Origin: Cryomorpha ignava
GTDB lineage: Bacteria > Bacteroidota > Bacteroidia > Flavobacteriales_D > Cryomorphaceae
Direction: 5' to 3'
Length of the DNA: 64,000 bases
NCBI RefSeq assembly: GCF_010686655.1
Contig: NZ_JAAGVY010000023.1
Location: 1-64,000, forward strand
Shown in pieces: positions 4,877 through 31,210 of this stretch. Made by a program: the position numbers and the translations under genes. The notes beneath the pieces are model-generated. The model searched no databases. It saw nothing but the letters and a program-made list of their open reading frames with translations, and was not told where the DNA came from. Position 1 is the stretch's first letter. Each line of letters starts with the position of its first letter.

Positions 4877-5545
4877 TTAGCTATTGTCAACCATGCCATC
4901 TAATAGCTTTACTATTCGCGAACCATACGCCGCATTCGATTCAGAATGTGAAGCCTGAATAATGGTAACCCCTTCATTGTTCAGCTCTTTAAAAAGCTTC
5001 ATGATTTCTTCACTTTGTGCGGAGTTGAGATTACCGGTTGGCTCATCGGCCAATAGGAGTTTGGGCTTGGCAATTAAAGCGCGCGCTACGCCAACAAGCT
5101 GCTGCTGACCACCACTCAACTGACTCGGAAAAAGATCTTTTTTGCCAACAATATTGAAGCGATCAAGCATATCGGCTACCAGTGCTTTTCGCTCTGCTGA
5201 TTTCACATTTTTGTAAAGCAGGGGCGTTTCGATATTTTCATAAACTGTGAGCTCATCAATTAAATGATAAGCCTGAAATACAAAACCAATATATTCTTTG
5301 TAGAGCTTTGAGCGGTTCTTATCTTTCATAGAATGCACCTGCTCGTCCAGAAAAGTATATGCACCTTCCTGGAAATCATCGAGCATTCCAATCACATTGA
5401 GCAAAGTTGATTTTCCTGAACCCGATGGGCCCATGATGGAGATAAACTCACCTTCTTCGACTTTGAAACTTAAATCTTTGAGCAGGAAAATACGCTTTCC
5501 ACCCTGGTCTACCCACTTGTAAATGTTTTTTAGTTCTAATAGCAT
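4877..5545 (-). CDS. ABC transporter ATPase (MacB/LolD type)
   Basis: The 222-residue protein is a stand-alone nucleotide-binding subunit. Walker A GPSGSGKST is at residues 39-47, the Q-loop is VFQAYHLIDELTVYENIE, the signature is LSGGQQQLVGVARAL at about 140, Walker B is LLLADEPTGNLN, and the switch histidine lies in ASHSES. The signature has L where R is usual after QQQ, and the D-loop has N where D is usual; both differ from the second ATPase of the locus. I chose the ATG at 5545 because it gives the usual family N-terminus MLLELKNIYK; the frame stays open upstream from a GTG at 5611. It should energise one or more of the adjacent permeases. Confidence 0.93.
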   Translation of the reverse strand: MLLELKNIYKWVDQGGKRIFLLKDLSFKVEEGEFISIMGPSGSGKSTLLNVIGMLDDFQEGAYTFLDEQVHSMKDKNRSKLYKEYIGFVFQAYHLIDELTVYENIETPLLYKNVKSAERKALVADMLDRFNIVGKKDLFPSQLSGGQQQLVGVARALIAKPKLLLADEPTGNLNSAQSEEIMKLFKELNNEGVTIIQASHSESNAAYGSRIVKLLDGMVDNS

Positions 5546-5619
5546 AGTTTCGTTTTTTATTCGTCTCTGACCCCAAAGTTTACTTGCTTCGCTGCGTCCA
5601 TACGGAGTCACTTCAATCC

Positions 5620-8106: not shown

Positions 8107-8122
8107 AGTGAAAACAGTGCCA
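8107..8122 (-). promoter_or_regulatory. Sigma-54-type promoter P2
   Basis: On the minus strand TGGCAC (8122-8117) is followed after five bases by TCACT. The -24 element is perfect; the -12 element is a weak match to TTGCA. The T of TGGCAC is 42 bases before the ATG at 8080, exactly the distance seen at P1 before the adaptor gene, and the intervening TGTnTTCAC is shared. Confidence 0.6.
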
Positions 8123-8175
8123 CAACCCTATACAGCTTCCTGTCAATTCATTACACTTTCGTGAAATTCAGAAAC

Positions 8176-8206
8176 TGTTCGGTTTTAATACACTCTCTGT
8201 TCGGTG
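8176..8206 (-). promoter_or_regulatory. Paired enhancer boxes upstream of P2
   Basis: Two ACCGAACA boxes (complement TGTTCGGT at 8176-8183 and 8198-8205) lie 22 bases apart on the same helix face, 54 bases upstream of the -24 element. The block CACCGAACAGAGA plus TGTATTAAAACCGAACA recurs at P1 with identical spacing. They are the expected binding sites for the neighbouring NtrC-type regulator; that assignment is inferred. Confidence 0.65.
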
Positions 8207-8229
8207 ATGGTACAGGGTTTTTTCCAGTG

Positions 8230-8316
8230 AGACCTGTCAGGTTTTGCAAACTTAGCGAAGCGATCTCATGAACACTTTTAAAAAATAAACACACGTGACA
8301 TAATCCTGGCAGGTCT
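8230..8316. repeat. Interrupted AGACCTG(T/C)CAGG inverted repeat carrying the 21-mer
   Basis: AGACCTGTCAGG (8230-8241) pairs with CCTGGCAGGTCT (8305-8316), 11 of 12 positions. The loop contains, at 8248-8268, the exact reverse complement of the 21-mer at 28049-28069. The same hairpin arms without the insert occur at 13192-13224. It lies just after the stop codon of permease 2 and may end that transcript. Confidence 0.6.
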
Positions 8317-8323
8317 TTTCAAG

Positions 8324-10735
8324 CTACTCCGTTTTTAAACTATCCACAGGGTTAGCAACCGCCGCTTTAATACTTTTAAAACTAATGGTTGCGAAAGCCA
8401 CAGCAGTGGTGATTATAGCAGCTACAGCAACCAACCACCATTTAATATCAATGCGATAGGCAAAGTCTTGAAGCCACATATTCATCAAGTAGATAGCTAA
8501 TGGAAAGGCAATTAAGAATGAGATAAGAATAAGCTTTAAAAAATCTTTGGAGAGCAATGCCACAATTTGAGCAATACTTGATCCCAGTACTTTCCGTATC
8601 CCAATTTCTTTATATCGTTGTTCTGCTGTGTAGGTCACCAGTCCAAATAATCCCAGACAGGCTACCAAAATGGTAAGGATGGCAAATAGGGCAAGGATAT
8701 TTCCCATCTTCTGCTCCGCCAGGTAGGTTTGATTGTACGAGTCGTCCATTATGGAATAGCTAAAAGCTTCCTTGGTATTAAATCCCAACCAAAGAGAATT
8801 TGCCTGATCGATTAAATCAGCCATATCCCCCACTTTGGCACGGACAATTAGACCGCCGTAAGGGTGATTTACCATAATCAATGGCTCAATATTCTGATGC
8901 AGAGATCTAAAATTAAAATCCTTAATAACTCCTACAATCGTTAATATTTGACCTCCATTAGTACTCCCCTTCCTTATCTGTTTTCCAAGCACATCATCAC
9001 CAAAACCCAGTACCTTTGCCGCCTGCTCATTTATAATAACTTTCGTAGAATCGGAACCAAATTCTTTAGAAAAATTACGACCCGAAACCAGCTCCATTCC
9101 CATGGTTGGAATATATTGGTCGTCTACATGATATACAGCCATTCTCCTTATAAGTCTATCACCGATAAAGATTGGCGACATATTATTATCGGTATCTCCT
9201 GCGGGAACGAAAGCAGATTGTGAAACATTCGCAACTGCCGGATCGTGCATTAATTCATTTTTAAAGGCCGCCTCGTTTTGACCCAACAAATAAGAATCGC
9301 GCAATACAAGCAGTTGATCTTTTTCATAGCCGAGCTGCTTATTTTGAATATATTCCATTTGTTGGTGCACCACAAGGGTTGCAAGAATAAGTCCGGCGGA
9401 AATTACGAACTGAAAAACCACCAATCCACTCCTTACAACTCTGCTATTTCCAGGGCCAATAAATTTGCTTTTAAGCGTGGCAACAGGTTTGAAAGATGAA
9501 AGAAAAAACGCTGGGTATCCTCCCGCAAAAACAGTGATTCCTATTACAATTACTATTAGAAAAATTACAACAGGAGGCCGAACCAAATAGCTTATCTCTA
9601 ATTCCTTACCTGAAATAGCATTGAATATTGGCAAAGCAAGAATTAAAAGAAGTACACCAAGAACTGTTGCCAGTAGTGTGGCTATGAATGACTCTGATAA
9701 GAACTGAAAAATAAGCTGCTTTTGATTTGAACCCAATACTTTGCGAATACCAACTTCCTTCGCTCTTTTTGATGCAGAAGCTGTGGCAAGGTTCATAAAG
9801 TTGATGCAAGCGATCAGCAGCATAAAAAGAGCTATGGCACTGAAAATATAAATGTACTTAATATCACCTCCCGGTTCCAACTGCGATGCGCCTGAAAAGT
9901 CTGCGTTTAAATGGATATCTGTGAGCGGTTGAAGCGAAAGTTCAATCTGATTATTCTTTGAAAATTCAGAAAATGACATCCCCATGCTCTCTTGCATTTG
10001 CGGCCCCATATATTTCTCAATCATGGGTGGAATCTTGGCTTCCACTTCGATGATATTTTTTCCTTTTTTCAATACCAAATAGGTAAAGAATTCAGACTCC
10101 ATCCATGATTTCTTTTCTGCAGCAGGATAGCCAATTGTAGAAGCAAACATATCGAAATGGAAATGCGAATTTTCAGGCACTTCATCCATTATTGCAGTAA
10201 CCATGAAGTCTCGATTATAATTTTCCAAATGCAGCACTTTTCCTATTGCATTTTCACTGCCGAAGTATTTCTTCGCCGCTTTGGTTGAAATTACGATACT
10301 ATTGGGTTGGTTCAATGGAGTTTTAGAATTCCCTTCAATAATTTGAAGGGTAAAAACATCAAAGAAATTGGGATCAACATAGGCAAACCGTGTATCTCTA
10401 TAAGTATTGTTTTTATAAGTAATTTTTGGATTAAATAAATTCGTGAGTCGGGTCGCATCAATAACTTCCGGGATTTCTCGCTTAAAAGCCTCGGCAACTG
10501 GAGCCATAACTACAGCTTCTTTAATATTCTCGCCATTCACTCTGGCGTGAAATACTACACGAACTATCTGATCGGCTTTTTCATTGTATTTGTCATAACT
10601 CAACTCATTAAAAACCAATAAAGCTATCATTAAACAGGTCGCAATGCCAATTGCCAATCCGAAAATATTGATGAAGAAGATGCCTTTGTGTTTTACAATA
10701 TTTCGCCAAGCTATTTTAAAGTAATTTTTTATCAT
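8324..10735 (-). CDS. MacB/FtsX-like ABC permease 2
   Basis: The 803-residue permease opens MIKNYFKIAWRNIVKHKG and has the double layout: membrane segment, periplasmic MacB-type domain, FtsX domain (SKRAKEVGIRKVLGSNQKQ), second periplasmic domain, FtsX domain (YKEIGIRKVLGSS), end NPVDSLKTE. It would work as a homo- or heterodimer with a separate ATPase, extruding or releasing a substrate through an adaptor and TolC; the substrate cannot be read from sequence. It is the last of seven permeases behind the adaptor and ATPase genes and lies 2 bases from the permease before it. Confidence 0.93.
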   Translation of the reverse strand: MIKNYFKIAWRNIVKHKGIFFINIFGLAIGIATCLMIALLVFNELSYDKYNEKADQIVRVVFHARVNGENIKEAVVMAPVAEAFKREIPEVIDATRLTNLFNPKITYKNNTYRDTRFAYVDPNFFDVFTLQIIEGNSKTPLNQPNSIVISTKAAKKYFGSENAIGKVLHLENYNRDFMVTAIMDEVPENSHFHFDMFASTIGYPAAEKKSWMESEFFTYLVLKKGKNIIEVEAKIPPMIEKYMGPQMQESMGMSFSEFSKNNQIELSLQPLTDIHLNADFSGASQLEPGGDIKYIYIFSAIALFMLLIACINFMNLATASASKRAKEVGIRKVLGSNQKQLIFQFLSESFIATLLATVLGVLLLILALPIFNAISGKELEISYLVRPPVVIFLIVIVIGITVFAGGYPAFFLSSFKPVATLKSKFIGPGNSRVVRSGLVVFQFVISAGLILATLVVHQQMEYIQNKQLGYEKDQLLVLRDSYLLGQNEAAFKNELMHDPAVANVSQSAFVPAGDTDNNMSPIFIGDRLIRRMAVYHVDDQYIPTMGMELVSGRNFSKEFGSDSTKVIINEQAAKVLGFGDDVLGKQIRKGSTNGGQILTIVGVIKDFNFRSLHQNIEPLIMVNHPYGGLIVRAKVGDMADLIDQANSLWLGFNTKEAFSYSIMDDSYNQTYLAEQKMGNILALFAILTILVACLGLFGLVTYTAEQRYKEIGIRKVLGSSIAQIVALLSKDFLKLILISFLIAFPLAIYLMNMWLQDFAYRIDIKWWLVAVAAIITTAVAFATISFKSIKAAVANPVDSLKTE

Positions 10736-10737
10736 AG

Positions 10738-13158
10738 CTACTCCGTTTTTAAACTATCAACAGGGTTTTGCATTGCCGCTTGAATGGTGCGCACACCAAT
10801 CGTTGCCAAAGCAATGACAAGGGCTATTCCGCCAGCGCCAAGAAAAACCCAAAGAGTAAGATTAATCCGATACACATAATTCTGAAGCCATTGCGATGAA
10901 AAATACCAGGCAATCGGCGTTGCGATAAAAAATGAGAGAGCAACTAATTTTAGAAAATCTTTAGTCAGTAAAATGGTAATAGTTGAAACCGATGCGCCAA
11001 CGACTTTTCTGATTCCAATTTCCTTTCGCCTTTGGGTTACAACCAAAAGTGAAATCGCAAAAAGACCAATACAACTCAAAACAATTGCCAGCAAGGAACC
11101 ACTTGAAATCATGGTGGTCATCATGCGTTCTTTAGTTAATGTTCTGTCTATATTTTCATCTAAAAATGAACCCATAAACAGGGTGCTTGGCTCTATTCTA
11201 CTCCACGCTTCTTTCACCGTTTCATAAGAATCTGTAAGATTTTGGGGCACCACTTTTACATACACGTAGTGCATTGGCGAACCACCATCCATAAAATAAG
11301 TAATAGGCTCAATGGCCATATCAAGGGCATCGAAATTATAATCTTTCACCACTCCTATTACCGAATATTTGACAGAATCATCAAGATAAAACTGAACGTT
11401 TAAAGCATCCTGCTCACCAAGCTCTTTTACCATAGCTTCATTTATTACAACTGAAAGGCTATCGCCGGGAAAACTGCGATCAAAACTGCGCCCTTGAAGA
11501 ATTGGAATATCAAGCGTTTTTGCATAATCGTAATCTACAAAAAGCATATTTGTAGATACCTGTCTATTCTTAAAGTCAAAGCCTAAAACTGTCGCACTTG
11601 CACGTCCGTCGCGACCCAGCCCCAAATTATCATCTGCAGCGGTGAGACCCAATATTTCAGGGCTTTTTGAGAGTTCATTTCGCAAGAGTTGGATTATATT
11701 GTCCGGGTCTTGTTTGGTGTTCAGCGGAAACGCTATGACCTGTTCTTTATTAAAGCCAAGGTCTTTGTGTCGCAAAAATTCGAGTTGCTGCCAAAGCACA
11801 AGCGTTCCGGCTATGAGCAAAATGGTAATGCTAAATTGCAAGACCATTAACACATCGCGCAGCCTGTTTTTGCCTGTGTTTTGCATCTTTCCTTTTAAAG
11901 CTTGCAAAGTACCCAGCTTGCTCATAAGCAGCGATGGGTAGCCCCCTGCCACCAAAGTAATTAGTCCAATCACCAAAAATACTGCGGTAAGAATCGGCAG
12001 ACTTAAAATAGAACCAAAAGAAGCTTTCGTGTCAAATAGCGTTTGGAATGGTTTGAGTAAACCCACTGCCAATAGGCTTCCCAGAACTACTGCAATCAGG
12101 AATACCAAACCACTTTCACCCCAGAGTTGAAAGAACAATTGTGATTTTCCGGCTCCCAATGTTTTGCGCATGCCTATTTCGCGCAAGCGCTGCGCACTCT
12201 TGGCAATACTCATATTAATAAAGTTTACGCTTGCGATAAAAAGTATCAGGAAAGCGATTCCCAAAACGATGTACTGAAGCGTTTTGCTCACTGTAATAAC
12301 GCCATTTTTGATCGATGCAAAACTCTGGTCTTCCACAGGGAGAAGTTTTATTTGGCGATAATTCCCCTCGGCATTTGGCTGTGCTCCATCGCGTTTTGCA
12401 CTCGAGATATTGTCGGCATAATGCAATTCCGAAAAAGTGCGGGTAGATCTTTCGAATTGTCTTGGTGTTACGCCATCGGCCAACTTTAAGTACACACTGT
12501 GATTGTGCGCACTCCAATCATCCAGATTGTCTGCATAAAAAGCATCGGGAAGACTTTTAAAATTAAAAAGGGCGCTAAAATTAAAATCGCTCGTTTCCGG
12601 AATATCTTTTAAAATAGCTGTCACGGTAACGGGTACTTCCATCCCACCCCTTTGCACGGTAACCGTTTTGCCCAAAGCCGGTTCTTCGCCAAAAATTATC
12701 GTTGCAGCCTTGCGGGTAAGAGCAATCGAATTCTTATCTGCAATAAGATTATTCTCATCGCCTTCCAAAACCGGAAAAGTAAAAATCTGGAAGAATTCGG
12801 GATCGGTAAGCGCGCTGCTCATCCCAAGTGTCTTATCCTTGTAGGTAATGAGCACGCCACCGGTAACGTATTTCGCGATATGCTCAACCCCAGGCACTTC
12901 ATTTCGCAATGCTTCCGCAAATGGAATCGGATTGGCTTCATCTGACTCGGCTCCTTCCGGTGTCTGCTCATTTGCATAAACACTGAAGATTGAGCCGGTG
13001 TTTTCGTGAAAACGATCGTAAGAAAGATCGAAAATGGCGTACATGCTCAATAGAAAAGCAACACCAAAGGCGGCGGTCAAGCCAACGATATTCAGGGCTG
13101 TGAACGTTCGGTTTTTCCAGAGATTCCGAAGGGCTATTTTGAAGTAGTTTTTTAGCAT
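10738..13158 (-). CDS. MacB/FtsX-like ABC permease 3
   Basis: The 806-residue permease opens MLKNYFKIALRNLWKNRTF and ends NPVDSLKTE. The FtsX motifs are AQRLREIGMRKTLGAGKSQ and RRKEIGIRKVVGAS, each followed by three membrane segments. It differs from its neighbours in the first membrane segment (LTAAFGVAFLLSMYAIF). Its stop codon is 2 bases from the start of permease 2, so the two are probably translationally coupled. A nearly perfect palindrome separates it from permease 4. Confidence 0.93.
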   Translation of the reverse strand: MLKNYFKIALRNLWKNRTFTALNIVGLTAAFGVAFLLSMYAIFDLSYDRFHENTGSIFSVYANEQTPEGAESDEANPIPFAEALRNEVPGVEHIAKYVTGGVLITYKDKTLGMSSALTDPEFFQIFTFPVLEGDENNLIADKNSIALTRKAATIIFGEEPALGKTVTVQRGGMEVPVTVTAILKDIPETSDFNFSALFNFKSLPDAFYADNLDDWSAHNHSVYLKLADGVTPRQFERSTRTFSELHYADNISSAKRDGAQPNAEGNYRQIKLLPVEDQSFASIKNGVITVSKTLQYIVLGIAFLILFIASVNFINMSIAKSAQRLREIGMRKTLGAGKSQLFFQLWGESGLVFLIAVVLGSLLAVGLLKPFQTLFDTKASFGSILSLPILTAVFLVIGLITLVAGGYPSLLMSKLGTLQALKGKMQNTGKNRLRDVLMVLQFSITILLIAGTLVLWQQLEFLRHKDLGFNKEQVIAFPLNTKQDPDNIIQLLRNELSKSPEILGLTAADDNLGLGRDGRASATVLGFDFKNRQVSTNMLFVDYDYAKTLDIPILQGRSFDRSFPGDSLSVVINEAMVKELGEQDALNVQFYLDDSVKYSVIGVVKDYNFDALDMAIEPITYFMDGGSPMHYVYVKVVPQNLTDSYETVKEAWSRIEPSTLFMGSFLDENIDRTLTKERMMTTMISSGSLLAIVLSCIGLFAISLLVVTQRRKEIGIRKVVGASVSTITILLTKDFLKLVALSFFIATPIAWYFSSQWLQNYVYRINLTLWVFLGAGGIALVIALATIGVRTIQAAMQNPVDSLKTE

Positions 13159-13191
13159 GGTGTTTTGTTTTTATTAATGATTTTTTTATTG

Positions 13192-13224
13192 AGACCTGCC
13201 AGGTTTTGAAAACCCGGCAGGTCT
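13192..13224. repeat. Near-perfect AGACCTGCC palindrome between permeases
   Basis: AGACCTGCC (13192-13200) and GGCAGGTCT (13216-13224) are exact complements; the inner AGGTTTT and AAAACCC also pair. On the minus strand this hairpin follows permease 4, so it could act as a partial terminator or RNA-processing site within the long transcript. The same arms occur at 8230-8316. Confidence 0.6.
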
Positions 13225-13230
13225 TCTGCG

Positions 13231-15678
13231 TTACTCCGTTCTCAAACTTTTTACCGGATTTCTCCGCGCTGTAGAAATCGTTTTAAAGCTCATAATAATC
13301 AAAGCTAAAATCAAAATTCCCAAACCACTACTCACAAAAACCCACCAGCTCAAACTGGTTTTATAGGCATAATCCTGCAGCCAGCTATTCAATCCATACC
13401 AGGCCAGTGGCGCCGCTAAGGCAAATGCGATGACCACGAGAACCAGGAAATCTTTGCAGAGTAAAACATTGATTTGAGCGATGGACGCACCAAGAATTTT
13501 TCTTACCCCGATTTCTTTCACGCGCCGTTCGGTGGTATAAATAACCAGACCCAAAAGCCCAAGGCAGCTAATCAAAACTGAAAGCCCGGTTGCCCAATTG
13601 AGCAGCTTGGTCATGCTGGTTTCCTTTCGGTAAAATTTTTCTACGGTTTCATCCATAAATTGTAAATCAAAATCAGCTCCAGGATAAACCGACTTCCAAT
13701 GGTTTTCGGCTTTTGCTATCACGCCCGACCAATCGGCTGAATTGGCTTCATGTAGTGCTAAATGAACGGTATTAAATTGGGAATACCTCTGTCGACTCCA
13801 ATCGCCAACGAAGGCCATGGGTTCTATTTTCGATTTTAGGGAGCGCTGATTAAAATCGCCCATCACCCCAACAATTGGCACCTTTTCACCACTGTAATCG
13901 ATCATTTTGCCAATGGCATCCTGTGGCGTTTCAAAACCCAGTACCTTACGAAACGTTTCGTTGATGATAAATTCGCGGATGGTATCATTCCGTAATTTTC
14001 GACCGGCAAGAAGGCCAATACCATAAAGATTCAGATAGCTGCTATCACCATAAAGCAATTGCAATTCGCTGTGAATTTGATTCTCTCCATCAAGATAATC
14101 TACTTCCGTAGAATGCCAACTAAATGAAGCTGGCGGTGAACCACCAAGGCTTATTTTTTCAATTTCCGGAATAGCCTTCAGCTTTTGAATAAACAACTCC
14201 CTTTTTTCCATCGAGCTATCAAGCCATGGTGTTCTCACATACGTTATGGCATCTGTTTTGAAACCCATATCTTCCTGCATCAAAAAGTGAATTTGCTTGC
14301 CCACCATGATCGTAGAAATGATAAATACCTGTGCAATTACAAATTGAAAAACGATCAAACTTTTACGTAAAGTTGCGTGACTATTGGAAGAGAAAATTCT
14401 GGATTTAAAAACCGAAACAGGTTTGAAAGATGAAAGAACCAATCCCGGATAAAACCCTGACAGAAAAGTAACTAAAATAATCAAAACCAATGCCGCACCA
14501 ATTATTACCGGATCGGCAAACAAGCCGAAATGCAATCCTTCGGGAATGAAATCGGCAAATATTTTGAGCAATCCTGCCGCCAAAAGAATTGATATCGCCG
14601 CCGCAAACAGTGTGAGCACGAACGTCTCACCAAGAAATTGAAATACGAGTTGCTTTTTGGAGCTTCCCAATGTCTTGCGAATCCCAATTTCTTTGGCGCG
14701 CTGAGACGCCTGAGCCGTATTGAGATTAATAAAATTGATGCAGCCCAAAGTCAGCAGAAAAAGTGCAATTAAGAGCAGACTGATGAGCACAGACTTATCT
14801 GCATGGTGAGGCGTGAAATCAAAAACACCATAGTTCTCACTAAAGTGAAGATCGCTTAAAGGCTGAAGGTGAAATGTGCGATAGTCTCCATATGTTTCAG
14901 CGTCTTCACTTTCATGCTCTTTCGCCAATTCGTCCAATTGGGTCTGAACATTTGTATGGGCATTTTTATTATTTAATTTTACAAAAAGCTGGGTGTTGGA
15001 ACTTGTGCTATGCCAGTTGTCGTCCAATATTTGATCCTTCATATACGACTGATTTGCCGTAGCCAAAGAGATAAATTCTTGAAAAGTAAAATCTGAACGT
15101 CCTTTAAAATCGGCAACAACTCCGGTCACTTTCGCCATCACAGAATCATCGTAAGTAAGCGTTTCACCAATTAGATTATCAAAATCTGTATTTGGAAAAT
15201 ATTTCTTCGCACGGCTTTCAGTCAATACAACTTCATTGGGATTCTGTAGGGCAGTTGCCTGATTTCCCGCAAGGAAATCATAATTCAAAAATTGGAAAAA
15301 ATCAGTATCGGCATAAATAACTTTTTCTGGATTATTGAAAGTTTTTGCCGAAGAACCAGCCTCTACTCTAGCCGGCTCGGAAGTGAAAAAAGTAGTCGAT
15401 TTTTGAACGCCTGTAAATCCTTCTTTTATTGCTTTGGTTAACGGAACCGCAACTCCTGAATTGTAGTTGTCCCCTTCTGGTGAACTATAATCAGTTGTGA
15501 TACGATAAATCAGCTCCCCATCTTCGTGAAAATTATCAAACGTAAAATCGTAATAAACCATCAGGCCAATTACAAAAGAAGCGCTCAAGCCAATGGCCAA
15601 ACTGATGACATTGATCAATGAAAAAAGCTTGTTTTTCCAGAGATTTCGAAAAGCTATTTTGAAGTAGTTTTTTAGCAT
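13231..15678 (-). CDS. MacB/FtsX-like ABC permease 4
   Basis: The 815-residue permease opens MLKNYFKIAFRNLWKNK. FtsX motifs are QRAKEIGIRKTLGSSKKQ and RRVKEIGVRKILGAS; the end is NPVKSLRTE. Its first 60 residues are almost the same as those of permease 5, and the DNA at 15,540-15,680 nearly repeats 18,000-18,160, so 4 and 5 are the most recent duplicates of the locus. The periplasmic domains have diverged much more than the membrane parts. Confidence 0.93.
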   Translation of the reverse strand: MLKNYFKIAFRNLWKNKLFSLINVISLAIGLSASFVIGLMVYYDFTFDNFHEDGELIYRITTDYSSPEGDNYNSGVAVPLTKAIKEGFTGVQKSTTFFTSEPARVEAGSSAKTFNNPEKVIYADTDFFQFLNYDFLAGNQATALQNPNEVVLTESRAKKYFPNTDFDNLIGETLTYDDSVMAKVTGVVADFKGRSDFTFQEFISLATANQSYMKDQILDDNWHSTSSNTQLFVKLNNKNAHTNVQTQLDELAKEHESEDAETYGDYRTFHLQPLSDLHFSENYGVFDFTPHHADKSVLISLLLIALFLLTLGCINFINLNTAQASQRAKEIGIRKTLGSSKKQLVFQFLGETFVLTLFAAAISILLAAGLLKIFADFIPEGLHFGLFADPVIIGAALVLIILVTFLSGFYPGLVLSSFKPVSVFKSRIFSSNSHATLRKSLIVFQFVIAQVFIISTIMVGKQIHFLMQEDMGFKTDAITYVRTPWLDSSMEKRELFIQKLKAIPEIEKISLGGSPPASFSWHSTEVDYLDGENQIHSELQLLYGDSSYLNLYGIGLLAGRKLRNDTIREFIINETFRKVLGFETPQDAIGKMIDYSGEKVPIVGVMGDFNQRSLKSKIEPMAFVGDWSRQRYSQFNTVHLALHEANSADWSGVIAKAENHWKSVYPGADFDLQFMDETVEKFYRKETSMTKLLNWATGLSVLISCLGLLGLVIYTTERRVKEIGVRKILGASIAQINVLLCKDFLVLVVIAFALAAPLAWYGLNSWLQDYAYKTSLSWWVFVSSGLGILILALIIMSFKTISTARRNPVKSLRTE

Positions 15679-15705
15679 GATTGTTCGGTTATTGGTTGGT
15701 ATAAA
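15679..15705 (-). repeat. 27-bp permease spacer S1 (TGTTCGGTT family)
   Basis: The gap between permeases 5 and 4 is 27 bp. It differs at 2 positions from the spacers at 18157-18183 and 20539-20565 and includes TGTTCGGTT, the same core as the enhancer boxes at P1 and P2. It also holds the ribosome-binding region of permease 4. Confidence 0.7.
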
Positions 15706-18156: not shown

Positions 18157-18183
18157 GATTGTTCGGTTTTTGGTTGATATAAA
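18157..18183 (-). repeat. 27-bp permease spacer S2
   Basis: This gap between permeases 6 and 5 is identical to the one at 20539-20565, and includes TGTTCGGTT. Identity outside coding sequence points to recent duplication of a permease together with its leader, or to selection on the leader. Confidence 0.7.
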
Positions 18184-20538: not shown

Positions 20539-20565
20539 GATTGTTCGGTTTTTGGTTGATATAAA
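20539..20565 (-). repeat. 27-bp permease spacer S3
   Basis: The spacer between permeases 7 and 6 is identical to S2 (18157-18183). Confidence 0.7.
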
Positions 20566-23034
20566 TTACTCCATTCTTAAACTTTTTACTGGGTTTGCAA
20601 TAGCAGCTTTTACCGCTTGAATGCTCACCGTAATTATCGCAATTGCCAATGCCGAAGTACCAGCCACGACAAATACCCACCAGGGAATATCTATCCTATA
20701 TGCAAAATCTTGAAGCCATTGGTTCATAGCAAGCCAGGCAATGGGCGAAGCCACAATAACTGCGATGAGTACCAGCCGTAAAAAGTCGGTAGAAAGCAGT
20801 TTTACGATTTCGGCAACATTGGCTCCCAGCACCTTGCGAATACCTATTTCTTTGGTTCGCTGTTGTGCGGTAAATGCTACCAAACCAAAAAGCCCTAAGC
20901 ATGCAATAAAAATAGAAAGGGAAGTAAAAATTCCATAAAGCTTGGCCAATTGCTGGTCTGATCGATATGCGGCATTGAGATCATCTTCCAAAAAGGAATA
21001 TTGAAAAGGGACATCCTGCTGATAGCGCTTCCATTTGTTTTCTATACTGGACAGAAGTTCTTTTGGATCGGCAGATTTGTATTTGACAGTGATAAAAGAA
21101 GTGCCGGTATCATAGCTTTTCGATGTATTCGAGAAAAGCGCGAAAGGCTGGATGGACTGATGCAGCGACTGCAGATTGAAATCTTTCACCACACCTATCA
21201 CCGTATAGTCCTCCATATTGCCACCGGGATAGCGAATTTTTTGACCAACAGGATTTACCCACCCGATTTGTTTGGCAGCAGCCTCATTCAGGACTATAGA
21301 AAGGGAATCATTGAAGCGAGCGTCAAATCCCCGCCCATGTATAATTTGAAGGTCGAGCGTAGAGATAAAATGGTCATCAACCAGATACGATTCCAAAACA
21401 ATATCCTTCGCTACCGCATGATTCGCCTCATTGGTTTGCGGCAGATAAAAATCACCAAAAGACCCCTTTGTGAAAATACTTGTAGAGCTTGTGGCCGCCT
21501 TCACCTGCGGCATCGCAGCCAACTCTTGCCTGAAGAAATCCTCACTTTTACGAAGGGTTTCCGTGTTGCTAATTACCAAAATGTTTTCTTTATCGTAGCC
21601 AAGATCGCGCTGCTGAATATACCTCAACTGAATAAACACAATGAGCGTTGAGATGACCATTACGATGGCGATAACAAACTGAAATACCACCAATCCATTC
21701 CGCAGAAAACCATTTTTAGTAGCGGTTAAACCTCCTTTTAATACGGCAACAGGTTTGAATGAAGAAAGGAAAAATGCGGGATAAATACCGGCGAGAAAAC
21801 CAGTGAGTAAAATCAGTCCTATAAGGATTATCCAAATTCCATTATTGAAAATATCCGTGAAGAAAATCGTTTTTCCCGAAAGGGAATTGAAAAATGGAAG
21901 CAGCAAAAAGACAAGTAAAACGGCGAAACCCGCGGCAATGAGCGTGTATAAAAGAGCTTCCGCCAAAAAGAGTTTCATAAGCTGACTTCGAGGCGAACCC
22001 AATACCTTTCTGATTCCAATTTCTTTATTGCGTTTGCCAGCCTGGGCCGTTGCCAGATTGGTGAAATTCACACAGGCAAGCAGGATGATGAAGAAAGCAA
22101 TGAGACCAAAAATATAAAGGTTCTGAATATCGCCTTGATCCGAAATTGCCGAAACAATCTCTCCCGATCGCAAATGAATGTCGGTAAGTGGCTGTAAATG
22201 AAGATCCCAATGGTTGCCGTTTTTCAAGAACTGTTCGTAAGGTTGACCAATCCGATCGAAGGCTCCTGCGGCCTGGGTTTTCACCATGTCTGGAAATTTT
22301 GACTCCAGACGGGCAAGTGTATTTGGGTCTTTCGCGGCCTGATCAGTCAGCTTTACATACGTGGCCACATTGAGCCATACCCAACTCCAGTTGAAATAGG
22401 CTACATCACCGAAATTCTCGACCGGCATAAGCATATCAAATTTTACTGTGGCCGGAAGGCTCGTAAGGTCTTCAAGAACACCCGTTACTTTGAGCGGTTG
22501 TTTTTCACTTCCGTAAAAAAGTGTTTGACCAATGGGGTTGGTTTCACCAAAATACTTTTTGGCTATTTGATGAGTAACGACCGCACTATTGACCGCTTTC
22601 AAACAGGTGGTGGGATCTCCCTGTGCGAGTGGGTATGAAAGCAACTCAAGGAAATTGGCATCTACAGCGTAAATATTTGTTTCGTTAAAAACCAGCTCGC
22701 CATTTTCCGTTTTGGCTTCAACTACATCTGCATTAGGTCGGTAAATGCGTGTAAAGCTTTCAATTTCAGGAAAATTTTCGACCAAAGCTGCCCCGGCGGG
22801 GGGTGGTGTATAGCCGGCGTAGAAAGCATTATCGCCCATTTTACCATCAATATTGACCCGGTAAATCTGATCAGAATCTTTAAAAAAGGTGTCGTAGCTC
22901 AACTCGTCTTGAATGTATAAGCCAATCAAGATCACACAGGTCAATCCAATAGCCAAACCAAGAATATTAATCAGACTATTCACCCGGTATTTCAGGATAT
23001 TCCGCCACGCTATTTTAAAGTAGTTTTTAAGCAT
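20566..23034 (-). CDS. MacB/FtsX-like ABC permease 7
   Basis: The longest of the eight at 822 residues. It opens MLKNYFKIAWRNILKYRVN, has FtsX motifs GKRNKEIGIRKVLGSPRSQ and RTKEIGIRKVLGAN, and ends NPVKSLRME, with M in place of the usual T. The first periplasmic region is long and contains a predicted helical stretch around QAAKDPNTLARLESKF. It lies 26 bases from permease 8. Confidence 0.93.
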   Translation of the reverse strand: MLKNYFKIAWRNILKYRVNSLINILGLAIGLTCVILIGLYIQDELSYDTFFKDSDQIYRVNIDGKMGDNAFYAGYTPPPAGAALVENFPEIESFTRIYRPNADVVEAKTENGELVFNETNIYAVDANFLELLSYPLAQGDPTTCLKAVNSAVVTHQIAKKYFGETNPIGQTLFYGSEKQPLKVTGVLEDLTSLPATVKFDMLMPVENFGDVAYFNWSWVWLNVATYVKLTDQAAKDPNTLARLESKFPDMVKTQAAGAFDRIGQPYEQFLKNGNHWDLHLQPLTDIHLRSGEIVSAISDQGDIQNLYIFGLIAFFIILLACVNFTNLATAQAGKRNKEIGIRKVLGSPRSQLMKLFLAEALLYTLIAAGFAVLLVFLLLPFFNSLSGKTIFFTDIFNNGIWIILIGLILLTGFLAGIYPAFFLSSFKPVAVLKGGLTATKNGFLRNGLVVFQFVIAIVMVISTLIVFIQLRYIQQRDLGYDKENILVISNTETLRKSEDFFRQELAAMPQVKAATSSTSIFTKGSFGDFYLPQTNEANHAVAKDIVLESYLVDDHFISTLDLQIIHGRGFDARFNDSLSIVLNEAAAKQIGWVNPVGQKIRYPGGNMEDYTVIGVVKDFNLQSLHQSIQPFALFSNTSKSYDTGTSFITVKYKSADPKELLSSIENKWKRYQQDVPFQYSFLEDDLNAAYRSDQQLAKLYGIFTSLSIFIACLGLFGLVAFTAQQRTKEIGIRKVLGANVAEIVKLLSTDFLRLVLIAVIVASPIAWLAMNQWLQDFAYRIDIPWWVFVVAGTSALAIAIITVSIQAVKAAIANPVKSLRME

Positions 23035-23060
23035 TGTATTTTCTTTTACAGGCCATTAAT

Positions 23061-25445
23061 CTATTCTGTCTTTAAGCTTTTAGTTGGGTTTGCTGTAGCC
23101 GATTTTATTGCTTGAATTCCGACTGTAAACGATGTTATGAGTAAAGCGATTAATCCGCTAAGCGCAAACATCCACCACTTAATGCTTATGCTATAAGCAA
23201 AACCTGCCAACCATGCGTTCATAACATACCATGCTATCGGGAAGGCGATAAGCGCCGCAATACCAACAAGTAGCACATAATCTTTAGAAAGCAAAACGAT
23301 AATTTTTACTACACCTGCACCCAGAACTTTTCTGATGCCAATTTCTTTTACCCGCCTTTTAGCCATGAAACTAATTAGACCGAACATACCGAGGCAAGAA
23401 ATAAAAATAGTTAAAAGTGCTACCACATTTACCGTTTTTAGCATCCCTTCAATCAAGCGATATTGGCCACTAACTTTGTCAGTCAAAAATTCCTGTTTGT
23501 ATTCTCTGCGAGAATCGATGTTTCCAATACCAGTTGCAATTTGTTGCTGCACACTTTTTTCGTGTCCTTTTTCAACTCTTGCAGAAAGAAACCGATGAGA
23601 TGCTATAGCATCTCTTTCACGATACAAATGAGCCAGCGGCTCAACCGCGTTTTGCATATCCTGATAATGAAAATCTTCCATTACGCCTATCACAGGATAA
23701 TCTGGTGAACCGCTCTCTTTTCCCTTCAACCGCTTTCCTTCAATAGACTCCCATCCAAGGGCCTTCATCGCCGTTCTATTGATAATTACCGAATTATCTT
23801 CGTCTTTATCGAGATTTTCATCAAAATCCCTACCCATAACCAATGGAATTTCAAGTGTTTTGAGGTAACCCTGATCTGTACGAGCATAACGGGTTCTGAT
23901 TTCATTATCTGTTTCAGGATCATAAAATTGAGTATAATTGAAGTTGTAATCGGAAGGAATGGCCTGACTTACCGAATAGGTTTTAACATAAGGGTTTGCT
24001 TCGAGCTTATTTAAAAGCGTATTGAAACTTGCTGAAGCAGATACCTCATCTTTATATTCCAAATTAATGTTCCCAATAATGACATTTTCTTTGTTGAAAC
24101 CCAAGTCAGCATTTTTCATAAAGCCAATTTGGCTATTCAAGATGATGGCCACACAGATGAATAATATGGCTATAGAAAACTGCAGGACGATAAAAGAATT
24201 GCGAACGAAAAAATTACGCTTGATGGCATCAATCTTTCCCTTTATACCTGTTGAAATTGGTACGGAGATAAACCGTAGTGTTGGAAGTATACCTACTACC
24301 AGGGTAACCAACAATCCTAATCCTATCGCGAAAAGGATGACCGGATAATCCTTTGCAACAGTAAAGGAGATCTTACCAAAATCGGCTCCGTAGATATCGT
24401 TCAATTTTGGCAACAAAATTCCGAGAAAAAGAAGTGCTGAAATAGAGATCGATGCAAATACCAATATGCCATTCTCAATACAAAACTGTATGATGACACT
24501 TCTTTTGGTGCCGCCTAATATTTTACGCACCGCGATATTCTTGGTACGGTGAAACATCGTAGAAGCATTCAGATTGAGCAGATTGATAAGTACAATGAGC
24601 AATACAAAAATCGAAGCTGCTATTGAGCCACTGATAATAGTATCGACCACCGGAATCGAATCCGTTCTCATACCCGCGAAAGGCATTAGCTTTATAGCCG
24701 CAATTGTAGTCGGATTTGAGTAGTTTGTCTCGACCAAATCGTTGATACGCCTTTCAAACTGAGCAATATTCGTAGATGGTCTTAGCTTTAAAAAATTCAT
24801 CGTGAAACTGTCGCTCCAATTGGCACGCGCTTTAAAGCTGGGAATGTCTTCTAAAAGTTTGGTAGGCATTATAACACCCAGACGGAATGCGGAATACGGA
24901 CTTATAGGTTCCAAAACTCCGGTTATCGTTAAGTTCAGCGTGTCATGAACACTTATGATTTTACCAACCGGATTCTCTTCGCCAAAAATTTTGAGGCTGA
25001 CCTTGTTGGTCAGTACAATAGAGTACTTTTTATCCAACGCCGTTTCCGGATCACCATATTTGAATGGCAATGAGAAAACTTGAAAAAATTCGGGTTCTAC
25101 ATAATCCGTCTGTTCTTGGAAATCCAATTCGCCATATTCCAACCACGGTTGAGTCCAGCCTTGTATGTGAGTTGCGGCAATAACTTCCGTAGACGCTTTA
25201 ACGATTTCTTTTAGCAGCGGGTATGGAGTCTGCGAATATGAATCGCCGCCGGTGGTCATCGTTTTTAAATAGTAGATGTTCTCTTGATTCTCAATATTAG
25301 AATCTGCATTATAATAAGCATACACTGAGAAAATAAGGGTTAGTACGCTACCAATTCCTATGCTCAATCCCAGAAGATTAAGACTGGAAAGTAGTTTGTT
25401 TTTCCACAAATTGCGAAGCGATATTTTAATGTGATTCCTGATCAT
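23061..25445 (-). CDS. MacB/FtsX-like ABC permease 8 (most divergent)
   Basis: The 794-residue permease opens MIRNHIKISLRNLWKNKLL. The first FtsX motif is TKNIAVRKILGGTKRS, unlike the KEIGIRK form of the others; the second, RRVKEIGIRKVLGAG, is normal. The end is NPTKSLKTE. It is the first permease after the second ATPase gene, from which it is separated by only 4 bases, so the two are probably coupled and may be the original transporter pair of this unit. Confidence 0.93.
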   Translation of the reverse strand: MIRNHIKISLRNLWKNKLLSSLNLLGLSIGIGSVLTLIFSVYAYYNADSNIENQENIYYLKTMTTGGDSYSQTPYPLLKEIVKASTEVIAATHIQGWTQPWLEYGELDFQEQTDYVEPEFFQVFSLPFKYGDPETALDKKYSIVLTNKVSLKIFGEENPVGKIISVHDTLNLTITGVLEPISPYSAFRLGVIMPTKLLEDIPSFKARANWSDSFTMNFLKLRPSTNIAQFERRINDLVETNYSNPTTIAAIKLMPFAGMRTDSIPVVDTIISGSIAASIFVLLIVLINLLNLNASTMFHRTKNIAVRKILGGTKRSVIIQFCIENGILVFASISISALLFLGILLPKLNDIYGADFGKISFTVAKDYPVILFAIGLGLLVTLVVGILPTLRFISVPISTGIKGKIDAIKRNFFVRNSFIVLQFSIAILFICVAIILNSQIGFMKNADLGFNKENVIIGNINLEYKDEVSASASFNTLLNKLEANPYVKTYSVSQAIPSDYNFNYTQFYDPETDNEIRTRYARTDQGYLKTLEIPLVMGRDFDENLDKDEDNSVIINRTAMKALGWESIEGKRLKGKESGSPDYPVIGVMEDFHYQDMQNAVEPLAHLYRERDAIASHRFLSARVEKGHEKSVQQQIATGIGNIDSRREYKQEFLTDKVSGQYRLIEGMLKTVNVVALLTIFISCLGMFGLISFMAKRRVKEIGIRKVLGAGVVKIIVLLSKDYVLLVGIAALIAFPIAWYVMNAWLAGFAYSISIKWWMFALSGLIALLITSFTVGIQAIKSATANPTKSLKTE

Positions 25446-25449
25446 CTTT

Positions 25450-26139
25450 TTAGTGCGTAAACTCTGATAAAATGTTCTCTGTAACTTTCTGGCCGTCGAG
25501 CATTCTGATAATGCGGTGGCTGTACTTGGCGTCGTGCTCGCTGTGCGTGACCATAATGATGGTGGTACCAGCCGAGTTGAGTTCTGTCAGCAAATCCATT
25601 ACGTCATTTCCATTGCTGCTATCCAGGTTCCCTGTAGGCTCATCGGCAAGGATAAGCTTCGGGTGATTTACCACGGCACGCGCTACAGCCACGCGCTGCT
25701 GCTGCCCACCTGAAAGCTGCTGCGGGAAGTGTTTGCGCCTGTGCATAATCCCCATTTTTTCAAGCACTTCTTCTACCCGCTGTTTGCGTTCTGCTGGTTT
25801 TACACCCGTATAAATCAGCGGAAGTTCCACGTTTTCAAAAACGGTAAGCTCATCTATCAAGTTGAAGCTCTGGAAAACAAATCCGAGGTTATGCTTCCGC
25901 AAATTGGCGCGCTTTCGCTCGTTGTAGCCAGCTACTTCGGTGCCATTAAACAGGAAGCTGCCACCATCAGGATCGTCCAATAGACCCAAAATATTGAGCA
26001 GCGTAGATTTGCCGCAACCCGAAGGCCCCATAACGGCAACGAATTCACCTTCTTTCACTTCAAAAGACAATTTGTTCAAGGCAATGGTCTTCACATCTTC
26101 GGTAGCGTAGTACTTTTCTAAATCTTTTATTTTTATCAT
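25450..26139 (-). CDS. ABC transporter ATPase (MacB/LolD type), canonical
   Basis: The 229-residue nucleotide-binding protein has all canonical motifs: Walker A GPSGCGKST at 38-46, Q-loop FQSFNLIDELTVFENVELP, signature LSGGQQQRVAVARAV, Walker B LILADEPTGNLDS and the switch histidine in VTHSEHDAKYSHRI. It is a stand-alone subunit of the MacB/LolD family and should pair with the permeases downstream. One ATPase gene for seven permeases suggests sharing among them. It lies between the adaptor gene (with repeat copy B between them) and permease 8. Confidence 0.95.
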   Translation of the reverse strand: MIKIKDLEKYYATEDVKTIALNKLSFEVKEGEFVAVMGPSGCGKSTLLNILGLLDDPDGGSFLFNGTEVAGYNERKRANLRKHNLGFVFQSFNLIDELTVFENVELPLIYTGVKPAERKQRVEEVLEKMGIMHRRKHFPQQLSGGQQQRVAVARAVVNHPKLILADEPTGNLDSSNGNDVMDLLTELNSAGTTIIMVTHSEHDAKYSHRIIRMLDGQKVTENILSEFTH

Positions 26140-26152
26140 CTTTTCCTTTAAT

Positions 26153-26275
26153 TGGTGTCTGTTTATATAGTTCGCTATCTGCGTTGCACGCTCTTTTGTA
26201 AACAGTCATTGACATGCGTCAACTCCTTGATTTCCAAAAGTGCGTGCACCTTGCTATCAAACTCTATAATTCAAA
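26153..26275 (-). repeat. MITE-like interspersed element, copy B
   Basis: Read on the minus strand, this stretch lines up with copy A (3160-3356) and copy C (31046-31166): GATAGCAAGGTGCACG, then AAATCAAGGAGT, the hairpin TTGAC-GCAT-GTCAA, TGACTGTTT, GAGCGTGCAACGCAGATAG and AACAGACACCA at the end. The terminal repeats are weaker here. It lies inside the adaptor-ATPase transcript; nothing else is seen in the gap 26140-26408. Confidence 0.6.
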
Positions 26276-26408
26276 CACTTATATTTATATTAAAATAATT
26301 CATTTAATCTTTTTTCAAAAAGTGTGTCCTTGTACATAAAGCTCTTTGCGCTTAACCTCATGCCTCTGGCTTGATCCGAGGTTTGCGACTTGGCGATTAA
26401 AAAAAACA

Positions 26409-27662
26409 TCACTCCTTCAACACCAATTCCTTCACATCCCCATAATTATCATAACTGCTCGTAATCACTTTATCACCGGGATTCAAACCACTTAAAACTT
26501 CGTAGTATTCTGTATTTTGACTACCCAATGAAATATCAGTTCTATAAGCCGTATTCCCATCTTCGCTGATTTTGAAAATCCAGTTTCCACCCGTTTGCTG
26601 AAAAAAGCCACCTTTTGGGATCAATACAGCCTGCTTTTCGTCGCTCAAGGCCAGGCGTATTTGCAATGTCTGTCCCCGTCGTATTCCCTGGGGCACCGAA
26701 TCTGCAAATTGCATATCGACTTGAAAACGGCCACTTGTAACCTGCGTGTAGACCTTCTTGATAACCAACGAATACGATTGGTCATTCATCGTAAAACTCC
26801 CCGTCTGACCAGTGTAAATTCTCGAAATGTAATGCTCATCAATGTCTGCACGGACTTTAAATCCACTCAAAACATCGATTTGTCCCAGGCGGTCACCTTT
26901 GTTTTTAGACTGGCCAATTTCTGCATCGAGCGAAGTAAGCTGTCCTGCGATTGGCGATTTCACAACAAGATCAGCCACTTTGCGACGCATCAAATCCAAT
27001 GCGCTTTGGGTGCGGGCATAGCTGCTTTTTACCTGCTCGTTTTCCTGCATGATGGCGATAGAATCCTCCTTCAAAATTTCGCCCGAAAGCTTCATTCGTT
27101 CTTTTTGATAGTTGTAATCATTTTCGGCTTTAATGAAATCCTGTCTTCCAATGGCTCCCTTTTCATGCAGCACTTTATTGAGTTCATAAACCCGTTTTGA
27201 TTCAATCAAACTACTCTCCACATCGGTGTATTGGTTGAGCTTGTTGATGGTGTTTTGGCGTGCTGCATTTTGCGAAATTTGCATTTGCGTAAGCAAGTTA
27301 TAAACCTGCGTTTCCTGGTTTACAAGGCTCAATTCCAAGTCGGTATTTGAAAGTCTCAAAATCGGATCACCTATTTCCAAAACTTCTCCATCCTCAACAT
27401 ATTTTTCTTCTACACGACCGCCTTCAAGGGCATCGAGATAAATGGTAGTGATAGGAAGCACAATTCCATTTACCGGAATATTTTCCTGAAAAACACCATC
27501 GCTCACCGTACTGATACTCATCCGCTCTATCTCCACGTTCAGTTTCGAAACGCCACTAGCAGAAGCAATCACAAAAACAATAAAGCACAAGAGTAAAAGG
27601 ATACCGCCATAAAGCAGGATTTTCTTGGTACTAAATCGTTTCTTTTCAATTGGGATGTCCAT
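26409..27662 (-). CDS. HlyD/MacA-like periplasmic adaptor (membrane fusion protein)
   Basis: The 417-residue protein has a short cytoplasmic tail, one membrane anchor at about residues 14-34, a barrel/lipoyl half (GGRVEEKYVEDGEVLEIGDPI), a long helical hairpin (about 110-230), the returning lipoyl half (VKSPIAGQLTSLDAEIGQSK), and C-terminal beta domains ending ELVLKE. It should link the inner-membrane permeases with TolC. I take the ATG at 27662: the frame is open to 27962, but those 100 residues are low in quality and overlap the promoter and enhancer boxes. It is the first gene of the unit driven from P1. Confidence 0.92.
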   Translation of the reverse strand: MDIPIEKKRFSTKKILLYGGILLLLCFIVFVIASASGVSKLNVEIERMSISTVSDGVFQENIPVNGIVLPITTIYLDALEGGRVEEKYVEDGEVLEIGDPILRLSNTDLELSLVNQETQVYNLLTQMQISQNAARQNTINKLNQYTDVESSLIESKRVYELNKVLHEKGAIGRQDFIKAENDYNYQKERMKLSGEILKEDSIAIMQENEQVKSSYARTQSALDLMRRKVADLVVKSPIAGQLTSLDAEIGQSKNKGDRLGQIDVLSGFKVRADIDEHYISRIYTGQTGSFTMNDQSYSLVIKKVYTQVTSGRFQVDMQFADSVPQGIRRGQTLQIRLALSDEKQAVLIPKGGFFQQTGGNWIFKISEDGNTAYRTDISLGSQNTEYYEVLSGLNPGDKVITSSYDNYGDVKELVLKE

Positions 27663-27688
27663 TTTACATATCTTTTCATAAAATGGGG

Positions 27689-27704
27689 TGTGAATACAGT
27701 GCCA
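27689..27704 (-). promoter_or_regulatory. Sigma-54-type promoter P1
   Basis: TGGCAC (27704-27699 on the minus strand), then TGTAT and TCACA. The -24 box is perfect and the -12 box weak. It lies 42 bases before the adaptor ATG, as at P2. Confidence 0.6.
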
Positions 27705-27757
27705 GAAACGTTGTGCTATGTTTTTCAGTAATTTACACCTTCGTGAAATATTAAAAG

Positions 27758-27787
27758 TGTTCGGTTTTAATACAGTCTCTGTTCGGT
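27758..27787 (-). promoter_or_regulatory. Paired enhancer boxes upstream of P1
   Basis: ACCGAACA boxes (complement TGTTCGGT at 27758-27765 and 27780-27787), 22 bases apart and 54 bases upstream of the -24 element. The same geometry is present at P2. A further shared block, TTTCACGAA(G/A)GTGTAA, lies between the boxes and the promoter. Confidence 0.65.
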
Positions 27788-27997
27788 GGTGGTACAGATA
27801 TATTTTATGCCTTTCGGCGAATGTGAAATTTGTACTATTGTGGGGTGGATGGATGGTTATATACGAACGAATTGATTTGGTTGATTGATTTGTGAAAGAT
27901 GATAGTAATATTCCAAAATTAATCTGTTCGAAAAGGGAGTAATTCGTTTTGCGATTACTCATGAATTCTGGAAGGATGAAGGATAATATACTTTATA

Positions 27998-31044: not shown

Positions 31045-31045
31045 G

Positions 31046-31166
31046 GTATGTCTGGCCATAAAGCCCAATATCTGCGTTATGCTCGATTGGAAAACAGTCA
31101 TTTACAAATGTAAACTCCTTGATTTTCACATCTTCACAAGCCTTGAACTTTATGACCTAGACATAC
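31046..31166 (-). repeat. MITE-like interspersed element, copy C
   Basis: GTATGTCTGGCCATAAAG at the left end and, reading inward from the right, GTATGTCTAGGTCATAAAG form imperfect inverted ends of about 20 bp. The core on the minus strand is AAAATCAAGGAGT, hairpin TTTAC-ATTT-GTAAA, TGACTGTTTTC. It fills the gap 31045-31210 and directly follows the kinase gene. Confidence 0.65.
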
Positions 31167-31210
31167 AATTTGGACGACGGACACTAAATAGTTTAAAGAT
31201 TTCTCATCTG

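Follow-up and report, generated by a model that had tools for sequence, protein, structure and literature searches.

Promoters of the standard sigma-54 type follow a fixed layout: with the GG of the -24 box numbered 0 and 1, they read T10 T11 G12 C13, so that GC, or at least its G, follows 10 nt after GG and G12 corresponds to -13. Contact with the -12 element normally silences the closed complex. The E. coli pspA and the nif promoters combine this -24/-12 arrangement, with its canonical -12 GC, with paired activator sites and a bend made by IHF, a protein whose consensus core is WATCAR-N4-TTR. Among exporters, the MacAB-TolC systems are built around MacB, in which the ATPase is fused to the permease. 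A link between sigma-54 and such permeases has been proposed: in its accessible text, a computational study (PMC12316311) claims sigma-54 control of COG0577/FtsX-like permeases, calls this the first evidence, and finds such control enriched in gamma-Proteobacteria, Opitutia and Bacteroidia.

Here we describe two sequence blocks that, from their sequence and conservation, are very probably enhancer-dependent sigma-54-type promoters and would turn a single transporter locus into a regulon of its own. The locus lies in the window, the whole 64,000-nucleotide stretch of Cryomorpha ignava DNA that was analysed, next to genes for a regulator and a kinase:

29695..31044, plus strand: sensor histidine kinase (HATPase_c; PAS_8 below cut-off; N-terminal hydrophobic segment seen by eye)
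28368..29705, plus strand: NtrC-type activator with receiver, AAA+ domain (GAFTDA loop) and Fis-type HTH (Pfam)
26412..27662, minus strand: HlyD-type periplasmic adaptor, gene 1 of unit 1 (Pfam; orthologues back the start at 27662)
25450..26139, minus strand: ABC ATPase 1 (Pfam and matches in relatives' loci)
8324..25445, minus strand: seven tandem permease ORFs of about 800 aa each (MacB_PCD/FtsX in the first and last)
5681..8080, minus strand: permease 8, gene 1 of unit 2 (Pfam and matches in relatives' loci)
4877..5611, minus strand: ABC ATPase 2 (Pfam and matches in relatives' loci)
3429..4844, minus strand: TolC-type outer-membrane efflux protein (Pfam and matches in relatives' loci)

A preliminary description of this DNA had split the genes into one unit of adaptor, ATPase and seven permeases and another of permease, ATPase and TolC, and the ORFs and Pfam domains match that layout. 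All parts of a MacAB-TolC-type exporter are present (PF13437, PF12704, PF02687, PF00005 and PF02321; the Pfam scan of permeases covered permeases 1, 7 and 8), with both ATPases encoded as separate ORFs, unfused to a permease. For comparison, an adaptor search gave 348 stretches, 321 of which encode relatives; we used the best 80 of these 321, nearly all labelled Flavobacteriaceae or its genera, which are related sequences, not independent events. When the proteins were compared with these 80 loci, all eight permeases matched the same relatives' loci.

Direct reading agrees exactly with the promoter geometry proposed earlier. Promoter 1 precedes the adaptor (ATG 27662), with TGGCAC at 27704-27699 and ACCGAACA boxes at 27765-27758 and 27787-27780; promoter 2 precedes permease 8 (ATG 8080), with TGGCAC at 8122-8117 and ACCGAACA boxes at 8183-8176 and 8205-8198. 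The two promoters have the same spacing: 42 bp from the start of TGGCAC to the ATG, 54 bp from the end of the proximal box to TGGCAC, and 22 bp from box to box. The start coordinate of 8107 given previously falls just beyond promoter 2, off its boxes. Each ACCGAACA box forms the right-hand end of a 17-bp site, TGT-N11-ACA (TGTACCAYCACCGAACA and TGTATTAAAACCGAACA). With the first G of TGGCAC (27703 and 8121) as reference, both copies have the two sites beginning at 93 and 71 bp on the upstream side and the ATG at 41 bp on the downstream side. The elements are as follows:

27780..27796, minus strand: promoter 1 distal activator site UAS1 (TGT-N11-ACA), conserved in relatives
27758..27774, minus strand: promoter 1 proximal activator site UAS2 (TGT-N11-ACA), conserved; second-best dyad centre of the alignment (-63)
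27733..27748, minus strand: promoter 1 palindrome TTTCACGAAGGTGTAA, common to the two window copies only
27711..27735, minus strand: promoter 1 symmetric IHF/HU-type dyad position, 12/17 consensus bases
27690..27704, minus strand: promoter 1 -24 box TGGCAC and atypical -12 region TTCAC, read directly
8198..8214, minus strand: promoter 2 distal activator site UAS1, read directly
8176..8192, minus strand: promoter 2 proximal activator site UAS2, read directly
8151..8166, minus strand: promoter 2 palindrome TTTCACGAAAGTGTAA, read directly
8129..8153, minus strand: promoter 2 IHF/HU-type dyad position, 12/17 consensus bases
8108..8122, minus strand: promoter 2 -24 box TGGCAC and atypical -12 region TTCAC, read directly

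The blocks that the preliminary description listed as shared are indeed present in both copies; one of them, the palindrome TTTCACGAARGTGTAA (8166-8151 and 27748-27733), lies outside the conserved architecture and was found in the window's two copies alone among the relatives' loci compared. A single ACCGAACA box is not special, with 46 matches (at most one mismatch) in the window against 44 expected. The spaced pair, on the other hand, occurs exactly twice in the 5.0-Mb genome, at promoters 1 and 2, and no third copy of the 39-bp pair appears there even when three mismatches are allowed; box pairs at many unrelated genes, the outcome named beforehand as contrary to the proposal, were not seen. 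A weight matrix trained on relatives' promoters, with the window left out, scored the window's promoters at 72.3 and 65.8, whereas 20 shuffles of the window (one strand, single-base) reached -14.1 at most. Lone ACCGAACA boxes also lie just 5' of three permease start codons (15682-15689, 18160-18167 and 20542-20549); they sit within recently duplicated permease junctions (AACCGAACAATCATG) and are accompanied by neither a partner site nor a GGCA box.

The regulator carries the three domains of an NtrC-type protein (PF00072, PF00158 and PF02954 by Pfam). An activator loop was found in 77 of the 80 loci, reading GAFTDA in 69, as in the window, GAFTGA in 7 and GAYTDA in 1; GAFTDA is listed in the accessible text of PMC4641369 as a loop variant that keeps activity. 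The genome has one rpoN, a Sigma54_DBD gene (E 9.4e-52). A second activator-like protein of 392 aa, encoded on the host's contig C3 (L126:9492-10670), has a GAFTSA loop and, by eye, apparently lacks the Fis-type end. A pattern scan of the host's own genome for other sigma-54 promoters gave 30 matches with one mismatch. Most of the 28 that were inspected lie inside ORFs; one (L113) is 47 bp 5' of a 106-aa ORF, and the remaining inspected matches showed no clear promoter. By eye, the neighbourhoods of the host's other activators held weak promoter candidates only.

The architecture is conserved in relatives. In an unconstrained count over 1.4 kb upstream, the inner activator site lies 71 bp from GGCAY in 63 of the 80 loci, 72 bp in 7 and 70 bp in 2, and the outer site 93 bp from it in 49. 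The two sites are 22 bp apart in 54 pairs and 21 bp apart in 9, with no other spacing up to 200 bp in the 80 loci. Both window copies show the 71-bp and 22-bp spacings, so that the distance from activator site to GGCA is fixed there as in most of the 80 loci. A constrained filter (69-73 bp, GG[CT]A required) placed 74 of the 80; because it demands the GG and A of GGCA, only the place of GG is informative. The six loci outside the filter (L044, L045, L047, L051, L080 and L088), together with L072, hold weaker or displaced candidates, and in L047, L051 and L088 additional ORFs separate the promoter from the adaptor. The matrix was trained on the 74 loci, and its scores for these are therefore circular; neither the window nor the second promoters nor the six loci that the filter missed were in the training set. 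The matrix and the dyad counts below contain one misplaced row (L072, set on a wrong GGTA).

The alignment consensus consists of UAS1, UAS2 GTGTATCAAAACCGAACAC, TAA-N4-YTGATWATCAR-N4-TTA, TTTTTGGCAY and T at +10. Because several second promoters carry an inverted UAS1, TGTTCG-N4-CGAACA or near it, CGAACA is probably the half-site of the activator. Among 37 distant homologues (31-74% adaptor identity; 8 from a search of the host's own order and 29 from further places), 22 fit the geometry and 15 do not; T10 is present in 21 of the 22, the exception, L134, looking like a false fit. Overall, the joint conservation of regulator, site pair, -24 box and spacing argues, at the level of sequence, for the earlier suggestion that the regulator drives both units.

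Between the activator sites and the -24 box lies a predicted bend site. Dyad symmetry over the alignment profile peaks at -20, the position of this site, and at -63, in UAS2. Of the 17 dyad bases, whose consensus was derived from these very promoters, 13 or more are matched in 92% of 74 promoters and in 0.1% of shuffled spacers. Both arms of the -20 dyad carry the WATCAR-N4-TTR core, always at the same offset; 8 or more of its 9 bases are matched on the right arm in 50 of the 74 promoters and on the mirrored left arm in 42. The window copies are weak: they retain the left arm of the dyad, yet match 12/17 bases in total. A homodimeric DNABII protein would fit such symmetry, and the host genome has two genes of the HU/IHF family.

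We then consider where the element occurs. A strict pattern, UAS2 plus TGGCAY, was scanned across 35 whole genomes of relatives and gave 30 matches in 23 of them, with none in a reversed control. Adaptors follow 22 of the matches, permeases 6 and serine-hydrolase-type ORFs 2 (two permease calls, L216 and L239, were made by the N-terminus alone, and the L218 hydrolase call by likeness to the L051 protein). Every strict match in the 35 genomes precedes a transporter gene of this type of locus or a gene embedded in it, and a single array can have as many as four. Because the remaining 12 genomes have no strict match, though each has an adaptor promoter by looser criteria, the test of this confinement covers the strict form alone. 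Where a genome has more than one match, the additional ones, seven in all, are found 12-32 kb off on the same contig and strand; six precede permeases and one a serine hydrolase.

Three of the five multi-match arrays were mapped, and showed four promoters in Winogradskyella flava and two each in Nonlabens antarcticus and Aquimarina latercula. In all three the last promoter opens a unit that has a permease first and ATPase 2 within it, with TolC next in Winogradskyella and Aquimarina. A matrix scan added four permease promoters (L056, L068, L076 and L094) and, in L064, a promoter preceding an ORF whose start resembles a signal peptide. An extra promoter splits at least 10 of the 80 loci, a lower limit because the locus sequences reach at most 10 kb beyond the adaptor. 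These extra promoters make the window's split a recurring design, and the division into units proposed for this genome is not private to it, since all three mapped relatives have a further promoter before the last permease.

Other genes are embedded in some arrays. A beta-lactamase-family serine hydrolase gene, or what by eye are its decayed remnants, is operon-first in several Aquimarina loci. The hydrolase gene or its remnants lie between promoter and adaptor in L047, L051, L053, L059, L063 and L065, and the gene has its own promoter in Winogradskyella flava (L245:2208-3404); PF00144 was tested in L051 and L245. An S41 peptidase, a DUF2807 adhesin-like protein (two loci) and a DUF2268 Zn-protease are also found (L245:8546-9802, L250:6892-7632, L068:19690-20430 and L088:8861-9979). 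The presence of serine hydrolases, the S41 peptidase, DUF2807 proteins and the Zn-protease inside some arrays hints at an envelope or peptide-related function.

The -12 region departs from the standard promoter. T10 is present in 80/80 loci, undemanded by the search. Position +11 is G in 44, C in 18, A in 13 and T in 5; position +12 is A in 53, C in 20 and T in 7, that is, A or C in 73/80 and never G. G at -13 is thus found in 0/80 transporter promoters, and the window copies read TTCAC. By the looser published pattern TGGCAC-N5-7-TGC, TG stands at N5 in 44/80; because the accessible text of PMC12316311 allows TGGCAC and TGC to lie 5 to 7 nt apart, part of the variant promoters would pass as short-spaced. 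As a control we used groES, which in F. psychrophilum has a mapped start with a sigma-54-type motif, SM4, according to the accessible text of PMC9723704. The protein was found in 34 of the same 35 genomes, and promoter DNA was compared in 30. G12 is present in 30/30 groES promoters and in 0/30 transporter promoters of the same genomes (Fisher p 1.7e-17, a value that is only descriptive because the genomes are related). The host's own groES site, TTGGCACATTATATGA, likewise has G at +12. The contrast implies that the same polymerase meets two kinds of -12 region. Canonical G12 also occurs in 5 of the 22 geometry-fitting distant homologues.

A lineage-wide change of sigma-54 specificity is ruled out by G12 at groES. 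The GAFTDA loop is rejected as the cause of the odd -12 region on two counts: loci with a GAFTGA loop (L037, L039, L040, L041, L043, L091 and L094) likewise have no G12, and the distant GAFTDA loci L206 and L211 have canonical T10-T11-G12. T at +11 is commoner in GAFTGA loci, in 4/7 (two of them near-identical) as against one GAFTDA locus (L093), but the independent cases are few. What the preliminary description had remarked on as an oddly poor -12 box turns out to be a conserved feature of the regulon; as read in these alignments, the -12 region is a regulon-specific variant without the usual G at -13.

How this variant is to be read is less certain. The transporter promoters may be sigma-54 promoters of the ordinary kind with nothing more than a weak -12 box, G at -13 being dispensable with an activator bound right beside the promoter and the variation being a product of drift, an explanation to which we give appreciable weight, a little short of an even chance. 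The 5 to 7 nt spacing in the accessible text of PMC12316311, which T10-G11 in 44/80 fits at its short end, and the free variation of position 11 speak for it. Nevertheless, a T10 fixed in 80/80 and a +12 that is A or C in 73/80 are not the pattern of drift, and drift should have left some G12 where the groES promoters of the same genomes keep it in 30/30. A more far-reaching proposal, which we advance only tentatively and regard as rather unlikely, is that these sequences define a lineage-wide class of sigma-54-type promoter. Selection would have eliminated the G at -13 and made T at -15 invariant, with ordinary G-13 promoters still served by the same polymerase in these cells. Within this one regulon another contact would stand in for that at -12, or the contact would be shifted elsewhere, in combination with activator dimers in tandem and a symmetric bend in the DNA. 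The non-standard -12 region could also mean that TGGCAC is part of a sigma-A type promoter (TTTG / TAnnTTTG) and that the regulator works without sigma-54. We find this hardly credible: by eye, the alignment profile has no conserved TAnnTTTG downstream, GGCA keeps a fixed distance from the activator sites, and the regulator has a sigma-54 interaction domain with a GAFTDA loop, the variant that keeps activity in the accessible text of PMC4641369.

The likeness of the window's two promoters raises a separate question, whether promoter 1 was recently copied and site 2 is without function. The two copies share a 65-bp stretch at 88% identity that includes the palindrome unseen in the relatives' loci compared, and 13 of the 14 permease 8 orthologues examined have no promoter before them, so that a second promoter is not universal. 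The boxes, their spacing and the -24 box are kept while intervening bases differ, however, and the second copy stands directly 5' of a permease with a leader of the same length. Moreover, a promoter does precede the Nonlabens permease 8 orthologue, the one exception in the 14, and the last permease in Aquimarina and Winogradskyella. We therefore consider a functionless copy improbable; because the palindrome, among the loci compared, is common to the window's two copies only, the second promoter may still be a lineage-specific duplicate.

If both blocks are enhancer-dependent promoters, as we favour, the switch would work as follows. The kinase would phosphorylate the divergently encoded NtrC-type regulator. 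Two regulator dimers would occupy the tandem pair of TGT-N11-ACA sites, at roughly 88 and 110 bp 5' of the predicted start. A DNABII (HU/IHF-family) protein would bend the DNA at the dyad between the activator sites and the -24 box, and the AAA+ ring would then remodel sigma-54 polymerase at TGGCAY. The second copy, before permease 8, would repeat the signal after 19.6 kb of operon and keep the distal genes expressed, so that permease, ATPase and TolC would be made together with the adaptor, ATPase and permeases. Sites, spacing, conservation, confinement of the strict element and the presence of an activator and rpoN come from the sequence; from these we infer phosphorylation, binding, bending, sigma-54 use and the transcription start.

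Flavobacteriaceae are the probable source of the locus, which would have arrived with its switch. In the host's own order the adaptor was matched at E 1e-60 in 9 of 249 genomes (the window's included), the best other match having 38% identity, whereas identity to Flavobacteriaceae reaches 83% among the best 80 of 321 relatives; GroES is much more divergent, at 50-59% identity to the same relatives (best match per genome). Best-scoring matches, against the 80 loci only, gave 78% for the regulator, 76% for the kinase, 92% and 86% for the ATPases and 50-77% for the permeases. A quick adaptor tree of 81 rows (the window, 43 of the 80 loci and the 37 distant homologues) places the window in a set of 48 rows (SH-aLRT 100) that includes every one of the 43 taken from the 80 loci, adjoining Aequorivita, Gelidibacter and kin (SH-aLRT 92, not starred) and far from the two homologues of its own family, a family sampled by 8 genomes, the window's included. 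The 48-row set includes one row of another family (L185), and the window need therefore not be the only transfer. The two own-family homologues (L136 and L137) have CGAAC-type boxes by eye, their geometry being unfitted by the script.

The contig is native, contamination being ruled out by a dispersed short repeat: of its 35 matches, spread over 21 contigs, one falls within the locus. This MITE- or REP-like repeat lies at 31040-31200 of the window and also at 26176-26236, between adaptor and ATPase. Elsewhere in the window, a 3215-aa ORF at 42959-52606, in a region of about 52% GC compared with about 40% near the locus, lies 5' of CHU_C and PorP_SprF genes and is a probable type IX secreted adhesin, and at 63149-63957 a unit of about 145 bp is present in five tandem copies.

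These data give a large, little-characterised family of Bacteroidota multi-permease exporters a defined regulatory code of predicted activator sites, bend site, promoter and spacing. The whole switch, enhancers included, would move between orders, and further copies divide long operons in other loci. Each array is tied to one sensor kinase, so that a reporter could serve to look for inducers and cargo. The consistent loss of G-13, with a control inside the same genomes, makes the role of the -12 element testable by single-base changes.

Our searches of the open-licence literature turned up nothing on the activator or its sites, on the dyad, on a layout with several promoters, or on the -12 variant. 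What is new here is the conserved odd -12 region, sigma-54 control of FtsX-type permeases being already predicted in the accessible text of PMC12316311. That prediction concerns the same permease family; the activator, its sites, the dyad, the multi-promoter layout and the atypical -12 region are not described in that text. The F. psychrophilum sigma-54 regulon (SM4; PMC9723704) comes from the same bacterial family as most of our relatives and, in its accessible text, has -24/-12 promoters with mapped starts, groESL included. The selection in its Table 2A holds mainly chaperones, proteases, gliding genes and exported proteins, with no permease array, and groES promoters in 30 relatives have the G at -13 that transporter promoters never have. 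Like MacAB-TolC exporters, the window locus encodes a HlyD-type adaptor, MacB_PCD/FtsX permeases and a TolC-type protein; it differs in its separate ATPase genes, two per locus, and in its permeases of about 800 aa, eight per locus. Finally, the layout of paired activator sites and -24/-12 elements, recognised here from sequence alone, is that of the E. coli pspA and the nif promoters, and the predicted bend site would correspond to their IHF bend; those promoters have other activators and targets and a canonical -12 GC, and the bend site predicted here is symmetric.
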